IMG/VR virus record: IMGVR_UViG_3300050343_000235
Location: 1 to 48,392 of that record
From: a virus
Reading direction: 5' to 3' (one strand)
DNA length: 48,392 bases
A program made the translations under genes and the position numbers. Below are positions 8,723 to 34,107 of the stretch, piece after piece. The notes beneath the pieces were generated by a model. The model was not told the DNA's origin and did not search any database. It worked only from the letters and a program-made list of their open reading frames with translations. The stretch's first letter is position 1, and each line of letters begins with the position of its first letter.

Positions 8723-11700
8723 ATGGCATCATACTACGATCCAACAAAAAGCCTTCCACCAAAAAAAACTTAATCAAGGCGAAATAAAAGATTATATTAA
8801 TTTAACTCCTGAAGCTGAAGAAGATAATGAGATAAGTCAATTTGAAGCTGGATTAGCAGGTGTTGCATCAGGTGTTTTAAAAATACCAGAAGGTTTTGTA
8901 TCATTAGGTGCAGAACTTATGGACGCAACAGGGATGACACAAAACGCTGCTGCAAGAGTAGAATCAGTTTTTGACACTATAAATCCCTTTGAAGAAATAG
9001 CACAAGAAAAAGCAGCCGGAAAAATTTTAGAAGCAATAATTCAAATAGGTGTGCCTGCAGGAGCTGGTGCAAAAATTGCATCTAAATTAGCAACTAAAGC
9101 ATTACAAGCTAGAAAAGCAGGAAACTACGTAAATCTAAAAGGCAAAAATATTAAAAAAGGTCTTAAAAAAGTTCAAGAATTAAATGACAAAGAAAGATAT
9201 GCAAGATTTGGAGCTGCTGTAGTTGGTGGAGCTGCTGGTGAAGTATTTGTAGGAGATGCTGAAAAAATTGGAACGTTTGGTGATGCATTCGATATAGGTC
9301 CTACTCAATTAGATTTAGATGAATCTCAAGGTCCTAAAGAAGATGCAAGTAGAAAATTAATTAATAGATTAAAATTTGGTGCAGACTCAATAGTTTATTT
9401 TCCATTTGTTTATGGAGCAACTAAATTAGTTGGTAAAGTAGCACAATACGGAAAAGAATTAGCTTTTAGCTCATCTAAAATAAATAAATCTATAGATAAA
9501 ATAGCAGGAGTTGTGAGACCTACTTCCGATAAACCTGAAGCAATGTTTTTAGCTAAAAATGCAGAAGAAGCAGGAAAAGCAGCGGATGCTAACTTTGCAA
9601 TGGAACAAGTAAAGAGAATAGATAATGAAGTTGGTAAAATGTTTCCAAGTATTAAAACACTTTTCAATAAAGGTTTAAGAGAACAATACACTAAACAACA
9701 AGATCAATTTTATAAAGATTTAAAAGAACTAATGTTTGAAGGAGATTTATCAAAAAAATTAGGAAACACAAAGCTTTCACAAAAATTACAAAGACAGATG
9801 AAAAATGGTGGTTTGAATTCTGATTCACAAAAAATTGTGTTTGATTCTATTTATAATACTAGACAGAAATTTGGATCTTTAGTTGAAACCGTTAAAGAAG
9901 GTAGTACGGCTAAAGTTACTCTTCCAAAAAATATGAGAGATTTACCTGGTTTAATGGGAGATAGATTAAAAATAATGTTGGGTGGAACATATAAAATATT
10001 TCAAAACCCATATGTGGATTCGTTAACAGGATATAAACCTACGGATGAATCTATAAATACAGTGAAACAAATATTGAAAAGACATGGAGAAAGACATGGA
10101 AGAAATTTATCCAATGATGAATTAAGTTACAGAGTGAATGAAATATTGGATAGTGCAATTAAGTTTACACCTAAAACACAATTACCTTCATTTAAAATGA
10201 CTGACTTAACAATAGGTGCAAAAACACCTGATGTAAGAAAAAATTTTTTACAAACTTTAAGTAAAAAAAATAAAAACGGTGATTCAGCTACCGAAATTAT
10301 AGGTAAGGGAAGTAAAGCTTTTAGAAAATTATTTGGAGAAGTAGATGATGCAAGAGAATCAATTTACAGCGGTATAGGATTACTTTCTAATTTAGCAAGA
10401 AGATCAGAGTTTATAGATACTGTTTTAAAACAAAATGATGAAGCTATTGCAAAAGGTACTAAGGGACTTTTTTATTCTGAAAAACAAGACGCAATTAGAG
10501 AATTAGGAGCTGGTGGATTAAATAAAATTGTATCATTAGATGAAACATTAGAAGGTATGTTTAAAAATGGTGTTCTTGTTAATAGATTAAAAGGCTTACA
10601 CACAACAAAAAGAAATATCTGAATCATTTGAAGCTGTAAATAAATTAAGTGATTGGTTTACAAGTAAAGGTGGAAATGCATATAAATATGTTTTTCTATA
10701 TCCAAAAGCTGGTGCACAAGTTGCAAAAACAGTTTTGTCTCCTACAACACACGTAAGAAACTTTTTAAGTGCTTCAATGTTTTCAGTAGCCAATGGAACT
10801 TTATTTACAAATCCTGCTTTAGTTTTAAAAGCAATGAATAAAGCACGTAAATCTGTGCAACTAGGTGTTAGATCTCCTGAAGCAATGCAGGAATATAGAA
10901 GATTATTAGAATTAGGTGTTGTGAATACCAACACTAAAATGGGAGACTACCAAGCTTTATTAAGAGACATTGAATTAAATCCAGATGGTGGTTTTTCAAC
11001 AAATGTATTTAAAAGAATGTTACAAAAATTATCAAGAGTAACTAAACCAGCGCAAGATTTATATACAGCAGAAGATGATGTTTATAAAATTTATAATTAT
11101 TGGGTAGAAAAAGAAAGATTAGGTGATGCATATTTAAAAGCAGGTATTAAAAAAACTTTTACTCAATTAGAAGAAGAGGCAGCTGATATTGTTAGAAACA
11201 CAGTTTCCAAACTATGCATATGTATCTGATATTGTAAAAGGATTACGTTCAACTCCTTTTGGTAATTTTGCATCTTTCCCAACTGCAGTTATGAATAGCG
11301 CTGTTGGTGTTGGTAGTAGAATATTAAAAGAGATGAGACATTCTAAGCCTACGAAAGGTTCTAATATGTTACCTATGGTTTTTGAAACAGGAAAAGGATT
11401 AGTTAAAAATGATAATCCTCTTTATGGTATTGGTATGAAAAGGTTAATGGGAGCTTCAGCTGCATTTGGAAGTGTAGGTGTCGGAATAGGTGAAGGATTT
11501 AAAGCAATACTTGGAACTACGGATGAACAAGAAACAGCTCTTGAAAGATGGGTTGCACCATATGAAGTTGGTGACAAAAAATTTATTTCTTATGATGAAG
11601 ATGAAAATGGAAAAAGAACTTATTATTATCAAAACTGGAGTAGTAATAATGCCTACGATTATTTAGAACAACCTTTTAGAACTCTTTTAAGATCCGTCCA

Positions 11701-12009
11701 AGAGGGTATTGAAAAAGATGAACAATTAATGACAGGTTTCATTAAGGGTATATCGGATGCTTTTACAAGATCAATAGAACCATTTACATCAGAATCAATT
11801 GCACCAGAGGCAATTATAGATATTATTATAAGAGAAGGAGTAACCGATACAGGTAGTTACCACTTACACCAATGCCTAATCAACAAGTGGTTCAGACTGC
11901 GGCTATACCAGCAGCAGGCGCCATGAATCAGGGATTGACGCCAACTGAAAATGCATTATTATCCGAAGAAGAGAAACAAATTAAACTAAGATCAAGAGGA
12001 CTGGCATAA
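8723..12009 (+). CDS. Large internal virion/ejection-like protein (about 1,095 codons)
   Basis: Starts MASYYDPTKSLPP with ribosome binding site TAGGAG; an eight-A run at about 8765 has one A too many. Further breaks lie near 10612, 11200 and 11860. The protein alternates amphipathic helices with Gly/Ala-rich hydrophobic stretches (GVPAGAGAKIASKLA, FGAAVVGGAAGEVFVGD, SPTTHVRNFLSASMFSVANG, AFGSVGVGIGEG). The C-terminus after 11860 reads PMPNQQVVQTAAIPAAG and ENALLSEEEKQIKLRSRGLA. Size, position at the end of the tail module and membrane-active-looking segments suggest a T7 gp16- or P22 gp16-like ejection protein. No transglycosylase or other catalytic motif was seen. Confidence 0.55.
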
Positions 12010-26662: not shown

Positions 26663-26947
26663 ATGACATATAAAAAATCAAAATACAGACACGTAGTTAT
26701 AAACAAGAAGCGATACTACTTCTACAAGATAACTTGGTTAGATATCCTGGGAGACAGCGGACACGCTGACAACAATGAATTTATGGATATGAAGCCTGCT
26801 GTAATGATTACTAGTGCATATGTATTTCATAATGATTCTAAAGTACTTAGAACCTTTGCTAGCTATGATGCTAACTCTGAATGCTTCAGCGATCGTAATG
26901 TGTTTCCAAAAGGTTGTGTTAAAAAGATGGAGAAGATTTTAATTTAA
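26663..26947 (+). CDS. Conserved hypothetical protein
   Basis: 94 residues, MTYKKSKYRHVVINKKRYYF, YKITWLDILGDSGHAD, MKPAVMITSAYVFHND. The ITWLDILGDSGHA block looks like a conserved beta-strand core of a small phage family, function unknown. It converges on the small terminase gene, overlapping its 3' end by 9 bases. Confidence 0.65.
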   Translation: MTYKKSKYRHVVINKKRYYFYKITWLDILGDSGHADNNEFMDMKPAVMITSAYVFHNDSKVLRTFASYDANSECFSDRNVFPKGCVKKMEKILI

Positions 26948-27454
26948 TGAGTCTTCTTTTTTGTTTGGTGGGGTCTTTACTTTTTCTATTAGTTCTTCCA
27001 CTTCAACGTCTTCGAGAATCGGTGAGTAATCGTCTATTATCTGCTTCATTCTTAGCTCTAATTCTTCTGTTGATAGGTCTTCAAGTTTACCAGTTCTTAT
27101 TATCTTTTGTTCTATATACAAGCCCGCTGCTTTTCCTCTCGCAACTTCTGCATTCACCGCAGCTGACCACGCTTTCTTATCTCTTGCTTCATCTCTAAGT
27201 TTAGATAATTCTCTAACGTGACTTCCGAAAGTTACTTCATATTTCTTTTGGTATTCTTCTCTAAGTTCACCGATATATTTAACTACTAGTGGGTATGATT
27301 TTGGATTCTGTAATACACTTGATTGTTGTCTAGCGGCTTCTTTAGAATAACCTGCATCGATAGCGCATTGTGTGCCTGTCTTCCTACCTTCATTGGCAAC
27401 TAATTCTTGAGCAAATTTCATTTGCATTTCTGTTAATTTTTTTGGTACTCCCAT
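26939..27454 (-). CDS. terS: Terminase small subunit
   Basis: 171 residues on the minus strand. The N-terminal helix-turn-helix domain KKLTEMQMKFAQELVANEGR, CAIDAGYSKEAARQQ, SVLQNPKSYPLVVKYI is the classical Terminase_2-like DNA-recognition pattern; a helical oligomerisation region follows. It binds the packaging site and stimulates the large subunit. Unusually it is on the opposite strand and about 5 kb from the large subunit gene. Confidence 0.82.
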   Translation of the reverse strand: MGVPKKLTEMQMKFAQELVANEGRKTGTQCAIDAGYSKEAARQQSSVLQNPKSYPLVVKYIGELREEYQKKYEVTFGSHVRELSKLRDEARDKKAWSAAVNAEVARGKAAGLYIEQKIIRTGKLEDLSTEELELRMKQIIDDYSPILEDVEVEELIEKVKTPPNKKEDSLN

Positions 27455-27455
27455 G

Positions 27456-27620
27456 CTATTCTTCTTCCTCTAACATTTTCTTTTCTTCTTCGAATCCTTC
27501 CATCAATAACTCTGATGTAGTTTTTTCTTTTTTAAATATTTCATTCCACCTTTTTGAGTATAAATCGTTGGTAGGTCTTGATCTACCATCGTATTGCCTG
27601 TCTTTTGTTTTCTGTGTCAT
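27456..27620 (-). CDS. Small conserved protein upstream of terS
   Basis: 54 residues from ATG 27620: MTQKTKDRQYDGRSRPTND, LYSKRWNEIFKKEK, then a Glu-rich helix. DRQYDGRSRxxND and W/FNEIF are a pattern I know from small conserved phage proteins. An in-frame ATG at 27647 would add nine residues (MLEVKADTN). One base separates its stop from the terS start, so the two are co-transcribed. Confidence 0.65.
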   Translation of the reverse strand: MTQKTKDRQYDGRSRPTNDLYSKRWNEIFKKEKTTSELLMEGFEEEKKMLEEEE

Positions 27621-27784
27621 ATTTGTATCTGCCTTGACTTCTAGCATGACAATGATAAAAAAGCAATGATTGTAATGTTTTCATTACGCTCACTTTGTTG
27701 GTTATAAGGTTGGGGTCGGCTTACGACGTAGTTTTATCAACTCTTTCTACGAGATACTGGGCCCCATCCAAAAAGATAAAAGTT

Positions 27785-28009
27785 ATGAATGGAAAATTAT
27801 TAAGACAAGTTTTAGACAAGATGATAAAGGCTCCAGCTGTGCAACAAGCTAGAGTTCAAGTTTGTTTGCCTGATGGTAAATATTATGACGTTTCCTCTTT
27901 ACAATTAATGGAAAATAAAATATTGGGAGCTAGAGAAACTCATCGACTAGTCTTAACAGTCAAAGCAGAAACATGGAATATGGGTCAAGTTTTGAACAAA
28001 ATTGGATAG
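27785..28009 (+). CDS. Hypothetical protein
   Basis: 74 residues from ATG 27785: MNGKLLRQVLDKMIKAPAVQ, QARVQVCLPDGKYYDVSSLQ, RETHRLVLTVK. The helix followed by AxVQVxLPDGKxYDVSxLxL and RLVLTVK fits a small alpha-beta protein seen in marine phages. Weak ribosome binding site. The frame is open upstream to 27695 but that part is not protein-like. Function unknown. Confidence 0.55.
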   Translation: MNGKLLRQVLDKMIKAPAVQQARVQVCLPDGKYYDVSSLQLMENKILGARETHRLVLTVKAETWNMGQVLNKIG

Positions 28010-28018
28010 CCTGTTAGT

Positions 28019-28381
28019 TTGAAACCTGAGACCAAATTTTATGGAAATGTTAAGAAAAAAATTAATCAAATATCCTGGATTAGGATTGAAAACCTTGCTG
28101 TTCCTGGTACTCCCGATCTATTGGGTTATAATAATAATGGCGTCTTTTTCACTGTTGAATTAAAATATACAAAAACTAATAAAGTTACCATCTCCCCACA
28201 CCAGATTGCGTTTCACGTGAAACACCCAAACAATACTTTTATCCTAGTTTTGGATGGCTCTTGTAGCCTGCCAAAACTTTACAGAGGAGAAAGAATCCGG
28301 GAGCTTGTTGCTTGTGGCTTGAAGCTTGAGCCTTGCGTCATGGGTTATGACGCTTGTGGCTTGCTGCTTGAGTCTTTGTAG
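28019..28381 (+). CDS. VRR-NUC-like PD-(D/E)XK nuclease
   Basis: About 120 residues from a TTG start, MKPETKFYGNVKKKINQISW, RIENLAVPGTPDLLGYNNNG, VFFTVELKYTKTNKV, SPHQIAFHVKHP. PGTPDLLG plus FFTVELK gives the D...ExK catalytic core of VRR-NUC/Holliday-junction-resolvase-like nucleases. It may resolve replication or packaging intermediates. The last ~26 residues (from RELVACGLKLEP) are encoded entirely by a 7-bp tandem repeat array, so the natural C-terminus is uncertain. Confidence 0.75.
   Translation: MKPETKFYGNVKKKINQISWIRIENLAVPGTPDLLGYNNNGVFFTVELKYTKTNKVTISPHQIAFHVKHPNNTFILVLDGSCSLPKLYRGERIRELVACGLKLEPCVMGYDACGLLLESL
28302..28378. repeat. Heptamer array 1 (about 11 units, NGCTTGN)
   Basis: Consecutive 7-base units AGCTTGT, TGCTTGT, GGCTTGA, AGCTTGA, GCCTTGC, two degenerate units (GTCATGG, GTTATGA), CGCTTGT, GGCTTGC, TGCTTGA and GTCTTTG. 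Lies inside the 3' end of the nuclease gene on the plus strand and a possible gene on the minus strand. Confidence 0.8.
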
Positions 28382-28605
28382 TCCGAGGCATTATACCGCG
28401 CGACATTTTGTCGCAGCTTGTGTCTTGGAGCTTGAGCCTTGTAACCATTCTCATAGGCCCAGGCATCATGAAGAATCTTTATCAGAGTCTCCAGCTTGTG
28501 GCTTGACGCTTGTGGCTTGCGCCTTCGTGCTTGTTGCTTGTTTCTTGGCATTTCTTTCCCTTTCTTGTTGTTGAAATTGTTTGCGCTTCCTGCGCAGCTC
28601 TTCAT
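28345..28605 (-). CDS. Possible repeat-encoded basic protein
   Basis: Minus-strand frame; the likely start is the internal Met before PRNKQQARRRKPQ. It contains KPQASSHKLETL, a more ordinary central stretch IKILHDAWAYENGYKA, and ends SSSKPQAS. Most Ser/Lys/Gln/Ala-rich parts are translations of the heptamer arrays (three units = seven codons). The central LIKILHDAWAYENG resembles a motif of small marine-phage proteins, so it may be real, but repeat translation alone could make the open frame. It overlaps the nuclease gene end. Confidence 0.4.
   Translation of the reverse strand: MKSCAGSANNFNNKKGKEMPRNKQQARRRKPQASSHKLETLIKILHDAWAYENGYKAQAPRHKLRQNVARYNASDYKDSSSKPQAS
28400..28442. repeat. GCGACA palindrome plus heptamer array 2
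   Basis: GCGACA-TTT-TGTCGC at 28400-28414, followed without gap by AGCTTGT, GTCTTGG, AGCTTGA and GCCTTGT (28415-28442). The same order (palindrome, then AGCTTGT...) recurs at 29449. Confidence 0.75.
28493..28548. repeat. Heptamer array 3 (8 units)
   Basis: AGCTTGT, GGCTTGA, CGCTTGT, GGCTTGC, GCCTTCG, TGCTTGT, TGCTTGT and TTCTTGG in tandem. Starts with AGCTTGT, as do arrays 1, 2, 4 and 5. Confidence 0.8.
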
Positions 28606-28739
28606 AAAATTTTGGATGTTTGAATACGTGCATTTTTTACCTTTAATTTTTTAAAAAATTTTTTACATTTTCTAACATAAGCTGGTGACAGCTGCGAGTC
28701 GTTATATAAAAAATAATTTAATAAGTTATTATGTTTTGA

Positions 28740-29339
28740 TTAATGCTTGCCATATACAACCGCCTTTACTTCAGGATCCCAGCATTGTCTACAGTCACCG
28801 CACTTGCCGCTTTGATCCGGGGCTGGACATGTTCGAGCTTCACCAGTCGTGACTCCTGACTCATGACTCCAGGCGCTGGAAGCAGGCCCATCTATTTTAG
28901 ATCTTGATAATCTTATCACCAGGTTAGCAGGGACCTCTTCAGGTGCTGGCAAGAACTGACGTTCTTGAGTTGGTAACCAGTGACGCGTATCAGGTGTTAA
29001 CCTGCACACCTCCAAAATTTTTTGCATATGCTCGACTGATTGAACGTCTCCGGCGTCATGCCATCTAAACCATTTTTGATTTTTAATTTTAGCGGCCATT
29101 GCCTGAACCCATAGCGGGTTTTCAATTGCTGACAGCCTTCTATATTGAGCTGCTTTTATAGCTGGGTATCTTGTATAGTTGCCCTTCTTAGCGTAACAGC
29201 TAAAGCAAGGCGTCCCAGGGACCTGAGCAAGCTTCCATCCTGTTTTACACTCCCAGGCTGGTAGGCTGTACGATAGGCCCGGCATCTTAGACGTTTTTGT
29301 AAACGAGTCTGTTATTTTTAATGCGTCTTTTATTTTCAT
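28740..29339 (-). CDS. Phage Gp88-like protein
   Basis: 199 residues on the minus strand: GLSYSLPAWECKTGWKLA, TPCFSCYAKKGNYTRYPAIK, WFRWHDAGDVQSVEHMQKIL, HWLPTQERQFLP and a C-terminal Cys cluster (CPAPDQSGKCGDCRQCW). CxxCYAxxGxY plus FRWHDAGD is the signature of the phage gene-product-88 family, whose activity is not established; the Cys pattern suggests a metal or Fe-S site. Ribosome binding site AGGAGG. The gene is GC-richer than its surroundings, contains a TGACTCC-type heptamer triplet (about 28848-28868) and is flanked by repeat arrays, suggesting transfer. Confidence 0.75.
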   Translation of the reverse strand: MKIKDALKITDSFTKTSKMPGLSYSLPAWECKTGWKLAQVPGTPCFSCYAKKGNYTRYPAIKAAQYRRLSAIENPLWVQAMAAKIKNQKWFRWHDAGDVQSVEHMQKILEVCRLTPDTRHWLPTQERQFLPAPEEVPANLVIRLSRSKIDGPASSAWSHESGVTTGEARTCPAPDQSGKCGDCRQCWDPEVKAVVYGKH

Positions 29340-29402
29340 ATATTCCTCCTGAATCGATTCTTAACACGTCGACCCGGTACAAAACATTGTACACTTTGAC
29401 GC

Positions 29403-29486
29403 AGCTTGTTGCTTGACGCTTGAGGCTTTGTCAATTTACCAAATTGTCCTGCGACAATTTGTCGCAGCTTGTGGCTTGGGGCTTGT
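29403..29486. repeat. Heptamer arrays 4 and 5 with CTGCGACAA palindrome
   Basis: Array 4 (29403-29430): AGCTTGT, TGCTTGA, CGCTTGA, GGCTTTG, preceded by GACGC. Then palindrome CTGCGACAA-T-TTGTCGCAG (29449-29467), which runs into array 5 (29466-29486): AGCTTGT, GGCTTGG, GGCTTGT. Located upstream of the Gp88-like gene in a 590-base stretch with no gene. Confidence 0.78.
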
Positions 29487-29574
29487 GCTTTTACTTTCAT
29501 AATAATTTTTACTTTATAATCATTCTAAACTGGATCAGCACCAGAGATTAACCAACCATCCTTTCAGGTCATAG

Positions 29575-29790
29575 TCTCTAATGATCAATTAGAGATTTAG
29601 GTTAAGTTAGTACTGATCCCAGGTCCCTTATTCTCTAGTAGATATCTCCACCGCCCATAGCTATTGGGGCATAAGGAACCAGGGATCAGTACTGGTCCAG
29701 TGGCTATCTTCCAGGACCAGTCTAATCCTACTTGCTTTTGCCGGTGCAAGTCCCGTTAGAGTTTATAGTTTTGTTTCAGCGATAAACTCT
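29575..29790. ncRNA. Candidate structured non-coding RNA or structured leader
   Basis: Successive inverted repeats fill this gene-free stretch: TCTCTAAT/ATTAGAGA (29575-29595); a 22-base arm at 29610-29631 pairing 20 of 22 with 29671-29692 around an inner GCCC/GGGC stem; CTGGTCC/GGACCAG (29692-29698/29714-29720); CTTGC/GCAAG (29731-29750); AGAGTTTAT/ATAAACTCT (29758-29766/29782-29790). Strand is undecided; on the minus strand it would lie in the leader of the Gp88-like gene. No match to a known RNA class was recognised. The rest of the 29340-29930 gap holds arrays 4-5 and TGAC half-sites. Confidence 0.45.
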
Positions 29791-29930
29791 CAAATGAGGC
29801 TGAGTATATATAATAATATAGGATTGTGGCAGAAGTAAGGCGTAGGGTGGTCAACATTGACGCAGGGGTGTGACAATAATGACCAATGGTTTGACATAAT
29901 CTTGCCACAATTTTTTTGTAAACTATTCGC

Positions 29931-30128
29931 ATGAAAGTCAAAAGAGAAAATGTAAAACTAAATTGTGAGATGACAAATCTTACAAATCAAACTTTTATTT
30001 TTGCTCAAGAAATTTGGGAGAGTGAAAGTATAATTGATGATTTAGATTTTTATATACCTATTGATTTAAAAATAAAGCCAACAACTAAGAGGAGAAATAA
30101 ATGGACAAAGAAAGTAAATTTTTCATAA
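29931..30128 (+). CDS. Hypothetical protein
   Basis: 65 residues, MKVKRENVKLNCEMTNLTNQ, FAQEIWESESIIDDLDFY, with a basic C-terminus (KRRNKWTKKVNFS). Unrecognised. No Shine-Dalgarno is visible before ATG (TATTCGC), so initiation may be leaderless or weak. Four TGAC half-sites lie just upstream. Overlaps the next gene, whose ribosome binding site (GAGGAGA) lies inside it. Confidence 0.5.
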   Translation: MKVKRENVKLNCEMTNLTNQTFIFAQEIWESESIIDDLDFYIPIDLKIKPTTKRRNKWTKKVNFS

Positions 30129-30346
30129 TTGAAAAAGAGTATTTTTTGGGCGAGGCTAGATATAGCATTTACTCAAAAGACATATTTAATTTAACTACTG
30201 CTACTAGAAAATTATTAGCTTTAGATGAGTTGAATAATAATAAAGACATTACTTATCATTTACAAAAGGTTGATCCTTATTTAGATGATAGTAAAGACAC
30301 AGTAATTTTGGCTAATGGTAGTCATAATTCGGACACAATGATATAA
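30101..30346 (+). CDS. Hypothetical protein
   Basis: 81 residues, MDKESKFFIIEKEYFLGEAR, LTTATRKLLALDELNNNKD, ITYHLQKVDPYLDD. Acidic, mixed alpha-beta. Not recognised. Strong ribosome binding site AGGAGA; overlaps its upstream neighbour by 28 bases. Intact, like all genes of this accessory stretch. Confidence 0.6.
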   Translation: MDKESKFFIIEKEYFLGEARYSIYSKDIFNLTTATRKLLALDELNNNKDITYHLQKVDPYLDDSKDTVILANGSHNSDTMI

Positions 30347-30369
30347 TAATATAAATACAGAAAGCGAGG
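30339..30369 (+). promoter_or_regulatory. Extended -10 promoter with AAAGCGAGG ribosome binding site (cassette 1)
   Basis: TGA-TATAAT at 30339-30347 is an extended -10 box; AAAGCGAGG at 30361-30369 is the ribosome binding site of the gene at 30374. The same arrangement precedes the genes at 31391 and 32151. Confidence 0.6.
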
Positions 30370-30373
30370 TCAA

Positions 30374-31321
30374 ATGACTAAAAGACTAACACTAAATGCA
30401 GAAAAAAGAAAAACTATTGCAGATGTTTTCAAAGCACATTGGGAAAGTGAAGATAATCCCAAAAGACAATCACATCTAAAAGCAATAGAAAATTACAACC
30501 ATGCAAGAGAGATTACAAAATCACTTGCAGAAAAAGTTGTAAGAGCACATCAACCTCAAGAAGATGTTGATACAATTAGAAGTATGAGAGCAAAATATAA
30601 TTCAGCAGGTGGCGAGTTGTATGAAGATAATTGTTTTCACTTCACGCAACCAATCACTAAAGTTGATGATGAGGGTAGAGAGTACCAATCCGAAAATGAC
30701 GAACATGTTAAGTTTAGTTTAGATGATAGAGATTTTGCAAGGTCTTATTATAGAGATGAGATTAATGCAAATGGTCTTGACGCAGATTATAAATTAAAAC
30801 TTCAAGATGATTACTCAAAAAGAAATCCTGTATATTATGACATGGAAAGTAAAGTTGAAAACTTTTTGGGTTATGGTCGTAGGAATGATAAGACAGGAAA
30901 TACACTCTATCATCAAGACGAATGGGAAAACGATTTTAAACTTTGGACAATAGGAACTTCTTATTGTCATTCAAGACAGTTTAAAGTTGATGAAGATACA
31001 ATTAAAGTTTTTCAAATGTATAACCAAGCAGTTGAAAATGTAAAATTATCTCATCAACAAATGTTTTCTTATGTTGAAGATAAGATGAGCAAATTGAGAT
31101 TAGGTTTAAAATCTTATAAATACTTTGATCAAGCTAAAGAACTAGCTGACAAAGTTGGAGTTGCTTTGAATGAAAGTGTATTGAATGAAAGTAGCTCAAT
31201 GGCATTATCAATTTATAGTCCAGAAAATTTGGCTAGTCTTTTAGAAGATAAAGTTGAATTAACTAGAGATCAAAAAATTGCTATTGCAAAAGGTTTAATG
31301 CAACAAGAGGCAATCAACTAA
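30374..31321 (+). CDS. Unrecognised 315-residue accessory protein
   Basis: Intact. MTKRLTLNAEKRKTIADVFK, then a helical N-terminal half (LAEKVVRAHQPQEDVDTIRS), a middle region ELYEDNCFHFTQPITKVDDE, VENFLGYGRRNDKTGN, and a helical C-terminal half (EDKMSKLRLGLKSYKYFDQ), ending TRDQKIAIAKGLMQQEAIN. No membrane segment, signal peptide or catalytic motif is evident. It is the largest gene of the accessory island, with its own promoter cassette, and is followed by a perfect 11-bp hairpin. Likely abundant or independently expressed; the function is unknown. Confidence 0.7.
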   Translation: MTKRLTLNAEKRKTIADVFKAHWESEDNPKRQSHLKAIENYNHAREITKSLAEKVVRAHQPQEDVDTIRSMRAKYNSAGGELYEDNCFHFTQPITKVDDEGREYQSENDEHVKFSLDDRDFARSYYRDEINANGLDADYKLKLQDDYSKRNPVYYDMESKVENFLGYGRRNDKTGNTLYHQDEWENDFKLWTIGTSYCHSRQFKVDEDTIKVFQMYNQAVENVKLSHQQMFSYVEDKMSKLRLGLKSYKYFDQAKELADKVGVALNESVLNESSSMALSIYSPENLASLLEDKVELTRDQKIAIAKGLMQQEAIN

Positions 31322-31334
31322 CTGCGACAAACTG

Positions 31335-31387
31335 CACAATGGCGATACTCTCGCCATTGTGTTATAATGGGCACATAGAAAGCGAGG
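31335..31387 (+). promoter_or_regulatory. Perfect hairpin plus extended -10 promoter cassette 2
   Basis: CACAATGGCGA (31335-31345) and TCGCCATTGTG (31351-31361) form an 11-bp stem with loop TACTC. The extended -10 TGT-TATAAT (31360-31368) begins at its foot, followed by AAAGCGAGG (31379-31387). GTTATAATGGGCACATA (31361-31377) is an exact 17-base copy of 32119-32135. The hairpin may end transcription of the gene before or be an operator. Confidence 0.65.
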
Positions 31388-31390
31388 AAT

Positions 31391-31588
31391 ATGATAAACA
31401 ACAAACCATTTAAAGTAAGATACTTTTCGGCAAAAGATAAAATGACAATTACAAGAAATGCACTTTGGACAGACAAGTGTAAGTATTGGACATCAAAAGC
31501 AAATAGAATGTTAATGACTTATTTTGATGTTGATAAAAACGAATACCGAACTGCAACAGACAGTTGGACAATAATAGATAGAGGTTAA
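31391..31588 (+). CDS. Small hypothetical protein
   Basis: 65 residues, MINNKPFKVRYFSAKDKMTI, then WTDKCKYWTSKANRMLMTYF and YRTATDSWTIIDRG. Beta-rich, aromatic. Not recognised. Ribosome binding site AGCGAGG. Separated by one base from the next start. Confidence 0.6.
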   Translation: MINNKPFKVRYFSAKDKMTITRNALWTDKCKYWTSKANRMLMTYFDVDKNEYRTATDSWTIIDRG

Positions 31589-31589
31589 T

Positions 31590-31766
31590 ATGGCACAACA
31601 GAACGAAGAACATTTTGAAGTGATAAGTGAAAATAGAGCAAGGGCTCATGAGCAACAAAAAGAAATGCGACAAGAATTAATCGAGTGGGTTAAGACTTGC
31701 GACAAGTTACAAATGGGCGAGCTATATAGTGAAATGAAAAGAATGAAAAGGAGTTGGAATGAGTGA
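31590..31766 (+). CDS. Small charged helical protein
   Basis: 58 residues, MAQQNEEHFEVISENRARAH, EQQKEMRQELIEWVKTCDK, then MKRMKRSWNE. Probably one long helix with a Q/E-rich surface. Overlaps the next start by 8 bases, which carries its ribosome binding site (AAGGAG). Not recognised. Confidence 0.58.
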   Translation: MAQQNEEHFEVISENRARAHEQQKEMRQELIEWVKTCDKLQMGELYSEMKRMKRSWNE

Positions 31767-32094
31767 ATATAATTGGTGTCATGGACCAAGTTGCCATAAG
31801 CATGAAACACAAGATAGAGTGCGAGGTGTTAAAGGTCAAAAGGTTTTAAGAACTCGTAAGATCGCAAAAAATAATTGGAATGAAAATAATTTCTTTTCAC
31901 ATTTTTGTAGTCAAGGTTGTTGGAATGAATTTGCATATGCGCATTGGCAAGAATTCATTGGGCTATATCCAAGAGCCGAGGCTCTTGAAACACCGATCGA
32001 AGTTTCAAAAGTCAAGCACCCAGAAAACACAACTGAGTATGGGTGGACTCAAAGAGCATGGACAGAAACAAAGATTGAGGTGCGACAAGATTGA
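31759..32094 (+). CDS. Conserved zinc-binding hypothetical protein
   Basis: 111 residues: WCHGPSCHKHETQDRVRG, VKGQKVLRTRKI, FFSHFCSQGCWNEFAYAHW. CxxxxCHxH plus HxxCSQGCxxEF is a FLAP/MYM-type zinc-knuckle pattern; I recognise similar proteins in uncultured marine phages. Basic N-terminal half suggests nucleic-acid binding (inference). Confidence 0.65.
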   Translation: MSEYNWCHGPSCHKHETQDRVRGVKGQKVLRTRKIAKNNWNENNFFSHFCSQGCWNEFAYAHWQEFIGLYPRAEALETPIEVSKVKHPENTTEYGWTQRAWTETKIEVRQD

Positions 32095-32104
32095 CAATGT
32101 ACTC

Positions 32105-32146
32105 ATGTGCCCATTGATGTTATAATGGGCACATAACAAAGCGAGG
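32105..32146 (+). promoter_or_regulatory. Palindrome with embedded extended -10 (cassette 3)
   Basis: ATGTGCCCATT (32105-32115) is inverted as AATGGGCACAT (32124-32134); the extended -10 TGT-TATAAT (32118-32126) lies partly in the right arm, and AAAGCGAGG follows at 32138-32146. A protein bound to the palindrome, or its RNA hairpin, would directly affect transcription start, so an operator is plausible. TTGACA at 32091 is too far (24 bases) to be its -35. Confidence 0.62.
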
Positions 32147-32150
32147 AAAT

Positions 32151-32381
32151 ATGACACAAGAAAGAACACACAAAAGAGAAAACAGATTCAATGGCGAATC
32201 TGTAATGCTAACAAAAGAAGAGGCTAAGAAACATGACGCTATATTCTATTATGAATATCTAGCGACTTTAGAAGATAAAAAAATTGGTCAGGGTAGTTCT
32301 AAACTATGGGATAAGGTTCGAGCCAATCTTAATTGGTTTAGACAGAACAACGCTGACGCTTACATGGTTCTACTAGACTAG
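32151..32381 (+). CDS. Small conserved hypothetical protein
   Basis: 76 residues, MTQERTHKRENRFNGESVML, TKEEAKKHDAIFYYEYLATL, WDKVRANLNWFRQNNADAY. Helical. The TKEEAKxHDxIxxxE pattern is seen in small marine phage proteins. Last gene of the accessory island; palindromes follow. Confidence 0.6.
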   Translation: MTQERTHKRENRFNGESVMLTKEEAKKHDAIFYYEYLATLEDKKIGQGSSKLWDKVRANLNWFRQNNADAYMVLLD

Positions 32382-32394
32382 CCTCCTAGTACAA

Positions 32395-32443
32395 GGTGCG
32401 ACAATACGTCGCACCAAGCAGCCTGCGACAAAATGTCGCAGGC
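32395..32443. repeat. Two GCGAC palindromes between island and terL
   Basis: GGTGCGAC-AATAC-GTCGCACC (32395-32415) and GCCTGCGACA-AAA-TGTCGCAGGC (32421-32443, 10-bp perfect arms). Both contain the GCGAC core of the palindromes at 28400 and 29449. They may end transcription of the island, but neither has a clear T-run. The rest of the 32382-32630 gap is AT-rich with no gene seen. Confidence 0.7.
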
Positions 32444-32630
32444 GCCTCGTAGAGGTACCAAGCCCCAGGCAAAATTTGAAATTTCTTTATTTTTAGTTTA
32501 AGGTGCGACAAAAAAGAATCTTGATATATACGTATTTATACAAAGGTTTGGATAATCGTAGCCGTAAAATACTTTAAGGTTCTGAAAACATAACTGAAAA
32601 AATTTTGCAAAATTTTTTTTCGAATGCACT

Positions 32631-34107
32631 ATGGATATAGATAAACTAAAGAAATTTGAAAAGCTCCCACCTGATGTCAAAAGACAATTAGCTCTGTATA
32701 TGGCTAAATGGAAAGATAAGAAAAAAGAAGCTGATATACAACAGGACTTTATGAAGTTCGTTAAACATGTTTGGCCTGATTTTATTGAAGGTAAACACCA
32801 CAAACAAGTTGCTAAAAAATTCAATGAGATTGCTTCTGGTAAAACTAAACGTGTAATTATTAATATGGCTCCTAGACATACTAAGTCTGAGTTTGCATCT
32901 TACTTATTACCTGCCTGGATGGTTGGTCGTAATCCTAAACTAAAAATTATTCAATCTACTAACACAACTGAATTATCTGTAAGGTTTGGTCGTAAGGCTA
33001 AACAACTTATGGATTCTCCTGAATACAAAGAAGTCTTTCAAACAAGACTCAAAGAAGATTCTCAAGCTGCTGGTAAATGGGAAACCTCAACAAGGTGGTG
33101 AATACTACGCTGCCGGTGTTGGATCTGCAATTACTGGTCGTGGTGCCGATCTCTTGATTATTGATGATCCACATACTGAACAAGATGCAATGAATGCTCA
33201 AGCGTTAGATAGAACTTATGAGTGGTATACATCTGGTCCACGTCAACGTCTTCAACCTGGTGGAACAATTGTAATTGTAATGACTAGATGGAATGAAAAA
33301 GATTTAGCAGGTCGTTTGATCTCTGCACAAAAAGAACCAAAGGCTGATCAATGGGAGGTGATTGAGTTTCCTGCGATCCTACCAAGTGGTAAACCCCTGT
33401 GGCCTGAATACTGGAACTTGTCTGACTTAGAATCAGTTAAGGCTTCTATTCCCGGTTCAAAATGGAATGCACAGTATATGCAGAATCCTACTTCAGAAGA
33501 AGGAGCATTAATAAAACGTGAATGGTGGCAACCTTGGGAGAAAGATGGTTTGCCTGCAATCGAACATGTCATTCAATCTTACGATACAGCTTTTATGAAA
33601 AAACAAACTGCCGACTATTCTGCTATTACCACCTGGGGCGTGTTTCATCCCAATGAGGATAGTGGTCCCTGTCTCATGCTTCTTGATGCAATAAAAGGTC
33701 GGTATGAGTTTCCAGAACTAAAACGTATCGCCATGGATCAATATGGTTATTGGAATCCAGAGACGGTTATAATCGAGAGTAAGGCATCAGGGTTACCGCT
33801 TACTTATGAATTAAGAAAGATGGGTATACCTGTTTTAAATTTCACACCATCAAAAGGTAATGACAAGCACACCAGAGTTAACTCTGTATCTCCATTGTTT
33901 GAGTCTGGTAGAATCTGGGCTCCAACTGAAATGGAGTTTGCACAAGATGTAATTGAAGAATGTGCTGCGTTTCCTTATGGAGATCATGATGACTTGGTGG
34001 ATTCTATGACACAAGCTGTAATGAGATTCAGACAAGGTGGATTAATTAATCACCCAGATGATTATGAAGATGAACCTTTACAACAGACACCAAAAGTGTA
34101 TTATTAG
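32631..34107 (+). CDS. terL: Terminase large subunit (frameshifted)
   Basis: About 492 residues. The ATPase part has a Walker A-like NMAPRHTKSEFAS, Walker B ADLLIIDDPHTE and coupling motif IVIVMTRWNEKDLAGR. The nuclease part has the RNase H-like acidic motifs VIQSYDTAF, VIIESKASG and YGDHDDLVDS. One indel near 33085 (GGAAACCTC) lies between the Walker motifs. It packages DNA into proheads with the small subunit encoded at 26939-27454 on the opposite strand. Start of the head operon. Confidence 0.92.

Follow-up and report, generated by a model that had tools for sequence, protein, structure and literature searches.

The pac site of phage P1 consists of hexamer arrays that serve as the recognition site of TerS, and the cyanobacterial STRR, like other bacterial heptanucleotide repeats, are composed of homogeneous units made by slippage. 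Two plasmid systems involve short repeats and ribbon-helix-helix (RHH) proteins. On pSM19035, omega2, a ParB of RHH type, binds runs of 7–10 non-palindromic 7-bp repeats that overlap promoters (PMC9499535). The ParG boxes in the parH/operator of plasmid TP228 comprise a very short word with variable spacers and are read by an RHH dimer, which is also a repressor (PMC7308502).

We analyzed IMG/VR record IMGVR_UViG_3300050343_000235, positions 1–48,392, one strand, hereafter called the window. The locus of interest has the order TerS(−)–nuc(+)–[array]–gp88(−)–[array]–TerL(+). It is bordered on the left by the gene of TerS, the terminase small subunit (26939–27454, − strand), and on the right by a TerL match (32986–34107, + strand; phrog_38, E 1.1e-80). 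Between them lie nuc (28019–28381, + strand), encoding a small nuclease-like protein whose PHROG matches, to helicase/Holliday junction resolvase families, are weak; gp88 (28740–29339, − strand; GP88, PF17338, E 5.9e-31); and, after gp88 in the leftward direction, an ORF at 28466–28633 (− strand) with a conserved start, MHVFKHPKFYEEL... With a strict motif, 116 of 282 loci showed a counterpart of this ORF, and in relatives it often lies antisense over the nuc 3′ end.

The word pair GCTTG-NN-GCTTG occurs 13 times in the whole window, always on the + strand and always between 28303 and 29485, compared with 0.07 copies in shuffles. The three-unit pattern with a leading A gave four matches in a scan of the whole window, all within the array locus, and the reversed control pattern gave none. 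These counts and the start positions confirmed the initial annotation, which had described five arrays of NGCTTGN in about 1.2 kb, each opening with AGCTTGT (28302, 28415, 28493, 29403, and 29466). All five are on the + strand. Array 1 (28302–28378, described as 11 units) lies inside the 3′ end of nuc and encodes the C-terminal tail of its product; its 7-step GCTTG runs, at 28303–28335 and 28352–28370, keep the same 7-bp phase (28303 to 28352, 49 nt), and arrays 4 and 5 are likewise in phase with each other (63 nt). Array 2 (four units, 28415–28442) lies between nuc and gp88. Array 3 (eight units, 28493–28548) falls within the leftward ORF, whose low-complexity Q/A/S/K-rich tail is encoded by the array on the − strand. 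Array 4 (four units, 29403–29430) is upstream of the leftward gp88, followed by array 5 (three units, 29466–29486). The arrays thus run into the end of the nuclease gene and flank the Gp88-like gene, as had been annotated.

Arrays 2 and 5 follow, without a gap, two palindromes of the form GCGACA-N3-TGTCGC, GCGACATTTTGTCGC (28400–28414) and GCGACAATTTGTCGC (29451–29465), the A-GCTTG of each array coming directly after, and the array at 29403 is preceded by a half-site, GACGC, in TTTGACGCA. The initial annotation was accurate on this arrangement in the window, and it had further taken the palindrome-then-array order to be a fixed unit. The relatives contradict that generalization: among 139 distinct palindromes, 35 lie one base before an array, 8 more within 4 bp, and 11 within 400 bp, and the other 85 lack any array in the 400 bp that follow. 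A palindrome arm is present at about 59 of 522 distinct array starts. We therefore rejected palindrome and array as a compound element of general occurrence, their fusion being confined to part of the lineage; on the sequence evidence, the palindrome is a separate motif found in part of the relatives. GCGACA half-sites are also clustered on the + strand at 31324–32510 of the window (31324, 31667, 31699, 32082, 32398, 32425, and 32505). The half-site at 32082 immediately precedes a TTGACA...TATAAT pair resembling a sigma-70 promoter, and the cluster could plausibly be an operator of a phage regulator.

HTVC023P-type pelagiphages are the commonest ocean group of SAR11 viruses. The arrays occur in these phages and in more than 100 IMG/VR contigs. 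A scan of IMG/VR for AGCTTGNNGCTTGNNGCTTG gave at least 120 stretches; among the matches listed, nearly all represent the same locus, with an array in the 3′ end of nuc(+) or behind it, then gp88(−) and another array, and gp88 was found in 92 of 121 oriented sequences. The isolate HTVC027P has the order TerS(−), nuc, arrays, gp88(−), array, gp34(−), array, TerL(+). We gathered 240 further loci through gp88, TerS, and nuc searches, a set not selected for arrays. The three-unit pattern was present in 34 of 48 whole records, with all matches within each record on one strand and none for the reversed control. The initial annotation had proposed a mobile element. Neither copies at several sites nor variable insertion points were seen among the relatives; the arrays occupy one syntenic locus in one orientation, and the proposal is not supported. 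A literature search with the array sequence returned just coincidental primer-like matches in papers unrelated by their titles.

TerS, nuc, and gp88 occur together in 135 distinct loci. Heptads are present in 121 of the 123 whose TerS is at least 45% identical to that of the window and in 0 of the 12 below this value, although gp88 in the latter is 82–88% identical. Identity of gp88 is a poor predictor of arrays (AUC.19), and loci without gp88 keep them. We therefore rejected gp88 as the partner of the arrays. It is an exchangeable cargo gene between them: in 53 loci, TerS is at least 75% identical but gp88 less than 65%, showing exchange independent of TerS and nuc; the reverse pattern, gp88 kept and TerS diverged, was found in 12 loci, and other leftward genes replace gp88 in some loci. 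The locus therefore recombines, and to that extent its earlier description as recombination-prone holds, without extending to the arrays as the cause.

The heptad-less clade carries 13–17 same-strand GCTYG copies at the array position, mostly at 4-bp spacing. Other relatives show 8-bp (L268 and L277) or 6-bp spacing (L365 and L390), and every clade examined shows an excess of one-strand GCTYG at this position, with a spacing of 7, 6, 8, or 4. Judged by these clades, the constant feature is the pentamer on one strand, and the step varies by clade. It is established that one phage locus bears arrays of a conserved pentamer on a single strand.

Each of the two spacer positions carries 0.03 bit. 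Adjacent spacers are identical at a frequency of 0.056 versus 0.075 after shuffling, and spacer likeness at lag 1, taken by array class, is at or below expectation except for a mild excess in the last class. Homogenization of neighboring units over the whole unit was not found. Since adjacent spacers are alike less often than shuffled ones, slippage is not maintaining the arrays, and we rejected it, in line with the earlier remark that simple slippage would not account for them.

We measured conservation in gap-free, flank-anchored alignments that took the units from one of the two sequences and then scored whatever the partner had at those positions. Because alignment pairs are not independent, the identities are effect sizes and not p-values; for core, spacer, and flank, they were.943,.576, and.720 in nuc-tail arrays,.975,.594, and.832 in arrays of the nuc–gp88 interval,.975,.619, and.842 in arrays on the gp88 5′ side, and.970,.636, and.847 in arrays further on. 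Arrays of the last two classes stand upstream of leftward genes; they were taken as non-coding. Within nuc, the third codon base is kept more often in core codons than where those codons recur in the rest of nuc (GGC,.982 versus.522; GCT,.891 versus.595; CTT,.939 versus.864), with no difference for TTG, and spacers change freely, including amino acid-changing ones. A leftward ORF partly overlapping the nuc tail could add constraint there, not in the promoter-side arrays. On this evidence, natural selection maintains the GCTTG clusters whether or not the array is coding.

Leftward promoters were called as a −35 hexamer with a −10 at 16–18 bp and at most two mismatches. In relatives, 40% of the gp88 5′-side arrays and 51% of the arrays further on adjoin a leftward −35, compared with 1% of random positions, and the distance from array to −35 in such cases is mostly exactly 0. 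The same scan found no leftward promoter adjoining nuc-tail or nuc–gp88 arrays. In the window, gp88 has no consensus promoter at the array edge, and the GCGACA/GACGC motif occupies the place beside the array where relatives have the promoter. The genes behind the two array-abutted promoters of HTVC027P are gp33 (equivalent to gp88) and gp34, which make up a separate expression cluster with high levels at 6–9 h (PMC12753301).

The candidate reader of the arrays is a 52-amino acid RHH-like protein encoded at 24042–24200 (+ strand). It begins MTDISKYKSVALSHEACGKLDKICKVIVPTVRVSRAKALELIINEKV... and, by our own reading, appears to have the strand-helix-helix pattern of RHH proteins. Candidate stretches were found in 330 relatives from IMG/VR and, in the phage collection, in one record, HTVC027P, where the gene lies at 11641–11844 in the gp21 region. 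With a broader profile, the gene was recovered in every one of the 30 distinct loci whose left flank spans 7 kb or more; heptad arrays are present in 25 of these, weak in 2, and missing from 3. The encoded proteins have 52–60 amino acids, and the gene lies mostly 2.9–6.4 kb left of nuc. One of the three loci without heptads (L590, in the 4-bp clade) has a diverged form, as does the heptad-less 023Pt_psg01 (MADPAKYKSLSVPKNDWEQLGVLATKTNRTRSKMIGRLIRFFLDNKG). The diverged form matches Pfam RHH_1 with E 0.0023 and 18.3 bits, under the curated cut-off of 20.5. The main form gave no confident family in Pfam, PHROGs, or the PDB, and a low-confidence monomer model gave weak fold matches to solved structures. 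An RHH fold is predicted for the small phage protein. We had considered presence or absence of the gene as a discriminator and rejected it, since the broader profile found the diverged homologue in 023Pt_psg01; the evidence is therefore divergence, not absence. The gene is also present in loci whose heptads are weak, short, or missing (L553, L556, L563, and L565). An automatic scan found no different array cores beside diverged RHH-like proteins; by eye, L553 and L565 have short degenerate 7-bp repeats, too weak to use.

The best reading of the arrays is probably that of a protein-binding element, one of the possibilities in the initial annotation. They would offer a DNA-binding protein many copies of its site, one per GCTTG (or GCTYG when all clades are considered), with two free bases giving the usual 7-bp step, and they would bracket one or more leftward accessory transcription units, gp88 and its neighbors, between the terminase genes. 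The likeliest reader may be the phage's own RHH-like protein. Its dimers would line up along an array in the way that omega occupies its 7-bp repeats and would control the leftward promoters, perhaps with bridging of the arrays on both sides of gp88. Control of the leftward unit by this protein, acting through the arrays, is the inference best supported by our data, and we give it an even chance. Several observations count against it. The TerS clade predicts array type equally well; the window's gp88 is without a consensus promoter at the array edge; the RHH-like gene accompanies weak, short, or missing heptads in some loci; and the RHH assignment falls below curated cut-offs. Nuc-tail arrays adjoin no promoter, and bridging or another role must therefore be assumed for them. 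A further proposal, which we regard as decidedly unlikely, is that RHH-coated arrays flanking the cargo gene are bridged into a segrosome-like complex with two tasks, the timing of leftward transcription and the marking of the genome for packaging, its sites being written in synonymous bases of the overlapping nuclease gene. To our knowledge, little is known about the timing of genes and DNA packaging in these phages. Such questions become testable now that a cultured phage-host pair offers a strongly conserved cis element together with a named candidate for its reader, and related clades with 4-, 6-, 7-, and 8-bp steps offer a natural series for studying spacing change.

The main rival, itself unlikely in our estimate, is terminase recognition, in which the arrays are a pac/cosB region where TerS multimers bind the pentamers of the TerS–TerL interval and direct terminase cutting, with the short repeats in the role that the hexamers have in P1 pac. 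The position between TerS and TerL, the single orientation, the split of heptads at 45% TerS identity, and the independence from gp88 all suit this reading, which leaves unexplained the exact adjoining of leftward −35 boxes; moreover, the sites spread over at least 1.2 kb around cargo genes, and in the deposited HTVC027P sequence the ends lie about 15 kb away from the locus. It is improbable that the arrays are recombination linkers, conserved joints at which a phage recombinase exchanges leftward cassettes of promoter and gene. Random spacers leave matches of only 5 bp, a poor homology, and rare exchange hardly explains the strength of selection at synonymous sites, even though arrays are found at every boundary of leftward genes, stay while gp88 is swapped or replaced, and share the phage with an exonuclease gene (25695–26399).

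An element acting in the transcript, with repeated GCUUG (or CAAGC) as sites for an RNA-binding protein or in termination, is highly improbable. Arrays upstream of −35 boxes would lie outside the leftward transcript, and no Rfam family was found in the window locus, the scan of 26500–33500 giving nothing near gathering scores. The restriction to one strand speaks for it, as does the combination of a repeated word with free spacers, which also fits ring-shaped RNA binders such as TRAP. Scarcely tenable, and largely refuted already, is the notion that the heptads arose by slippage as repetitive codons in the nuc tail or the leftward ORF: the arrays do encode repeated peptides on both strands, and similar tails occur in a clade without heptads, but arrays upstream of gp88 promoters are equally conserved, synonymous sites are held while amino acid-changing spacers drift, and spacers are not homogenized.

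Other elements were seen in the course of this work. A hairpin family lies right of the arrays, in the window at 29609–29693 and in L273, L269, L255, and many other loci, with the conserved ends GATCCCAG...CAGGGATC. It numbers 226 copies in 161 loci, 1–4 per locus, with 0 of the opposite-strand type. The inner stem is variable yet complementary (mean of 6.2 pairs versus 0.5 when shuffled; 92 distinct 5′ stems), and the window copy has no Rfam match. RF02976 (Flavobacterium-1 RNA) scored above gathering in the same intergenic block of three relatives, pelagiphage HTVC027P included (L269:2798–2919, L244:5477–5597, and L273:3325–3445). GCTTGNN arrays are also dispersed in some bacterial genomes, of Pseudomonas, Flavitalea, Hymenobacter, Alcanivorax, and Halopseudomonas (those behind L133, L151, L166, L157, L159, and L183), with 68 to 431 three-unit matches each and 0 for the reversed control. 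Arrays that neighbor each other mostly form divergent −/+ pairs (30 of 38), and such arrays are absent from most sampled Gammaproteobacteria and Bacteroidota.

Compared with known systems, the phage arrays share with STRR a period of 7, unlike them having random spacers and a fixed locus. As in P1 pac and other TerS sites, short repeated words stand beside terminase genes and partly inside coding sequence; unlike at pac, leftward promoters adjoin them. The ParG boxes of TP228 likewise repeat a very short conserved word between variable spacers; they are, however, tetramers with AT-rich spacers and a partition ATPase partner, outside a phage. From the heptads of pSM19035, the phage arrays differ in their core (GCTTG, not ATCAC), in their constant orientation and their spacing of 6, 8, or 4 in relatives, and in lying in the terminase interval of a lytic phage, partly inside a coding frame. 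They are nevertheless tandem, non-palindromic short repeats with a fixed core and a regular step, an anatomy that resembles the operator-centromere arrays of omega/ParG-type RHH proteins. The likeness is to the omega2 parS/operator heptads of pSM19035, where non-palindromic 7-bp repeats with an invariant core follow one another without gaps inside promoters or beside them (PMC9499535), and it may extend to a small protein encoded on the same replicon, of RHH type in omega2 and RHH-like by sequence in the phage.
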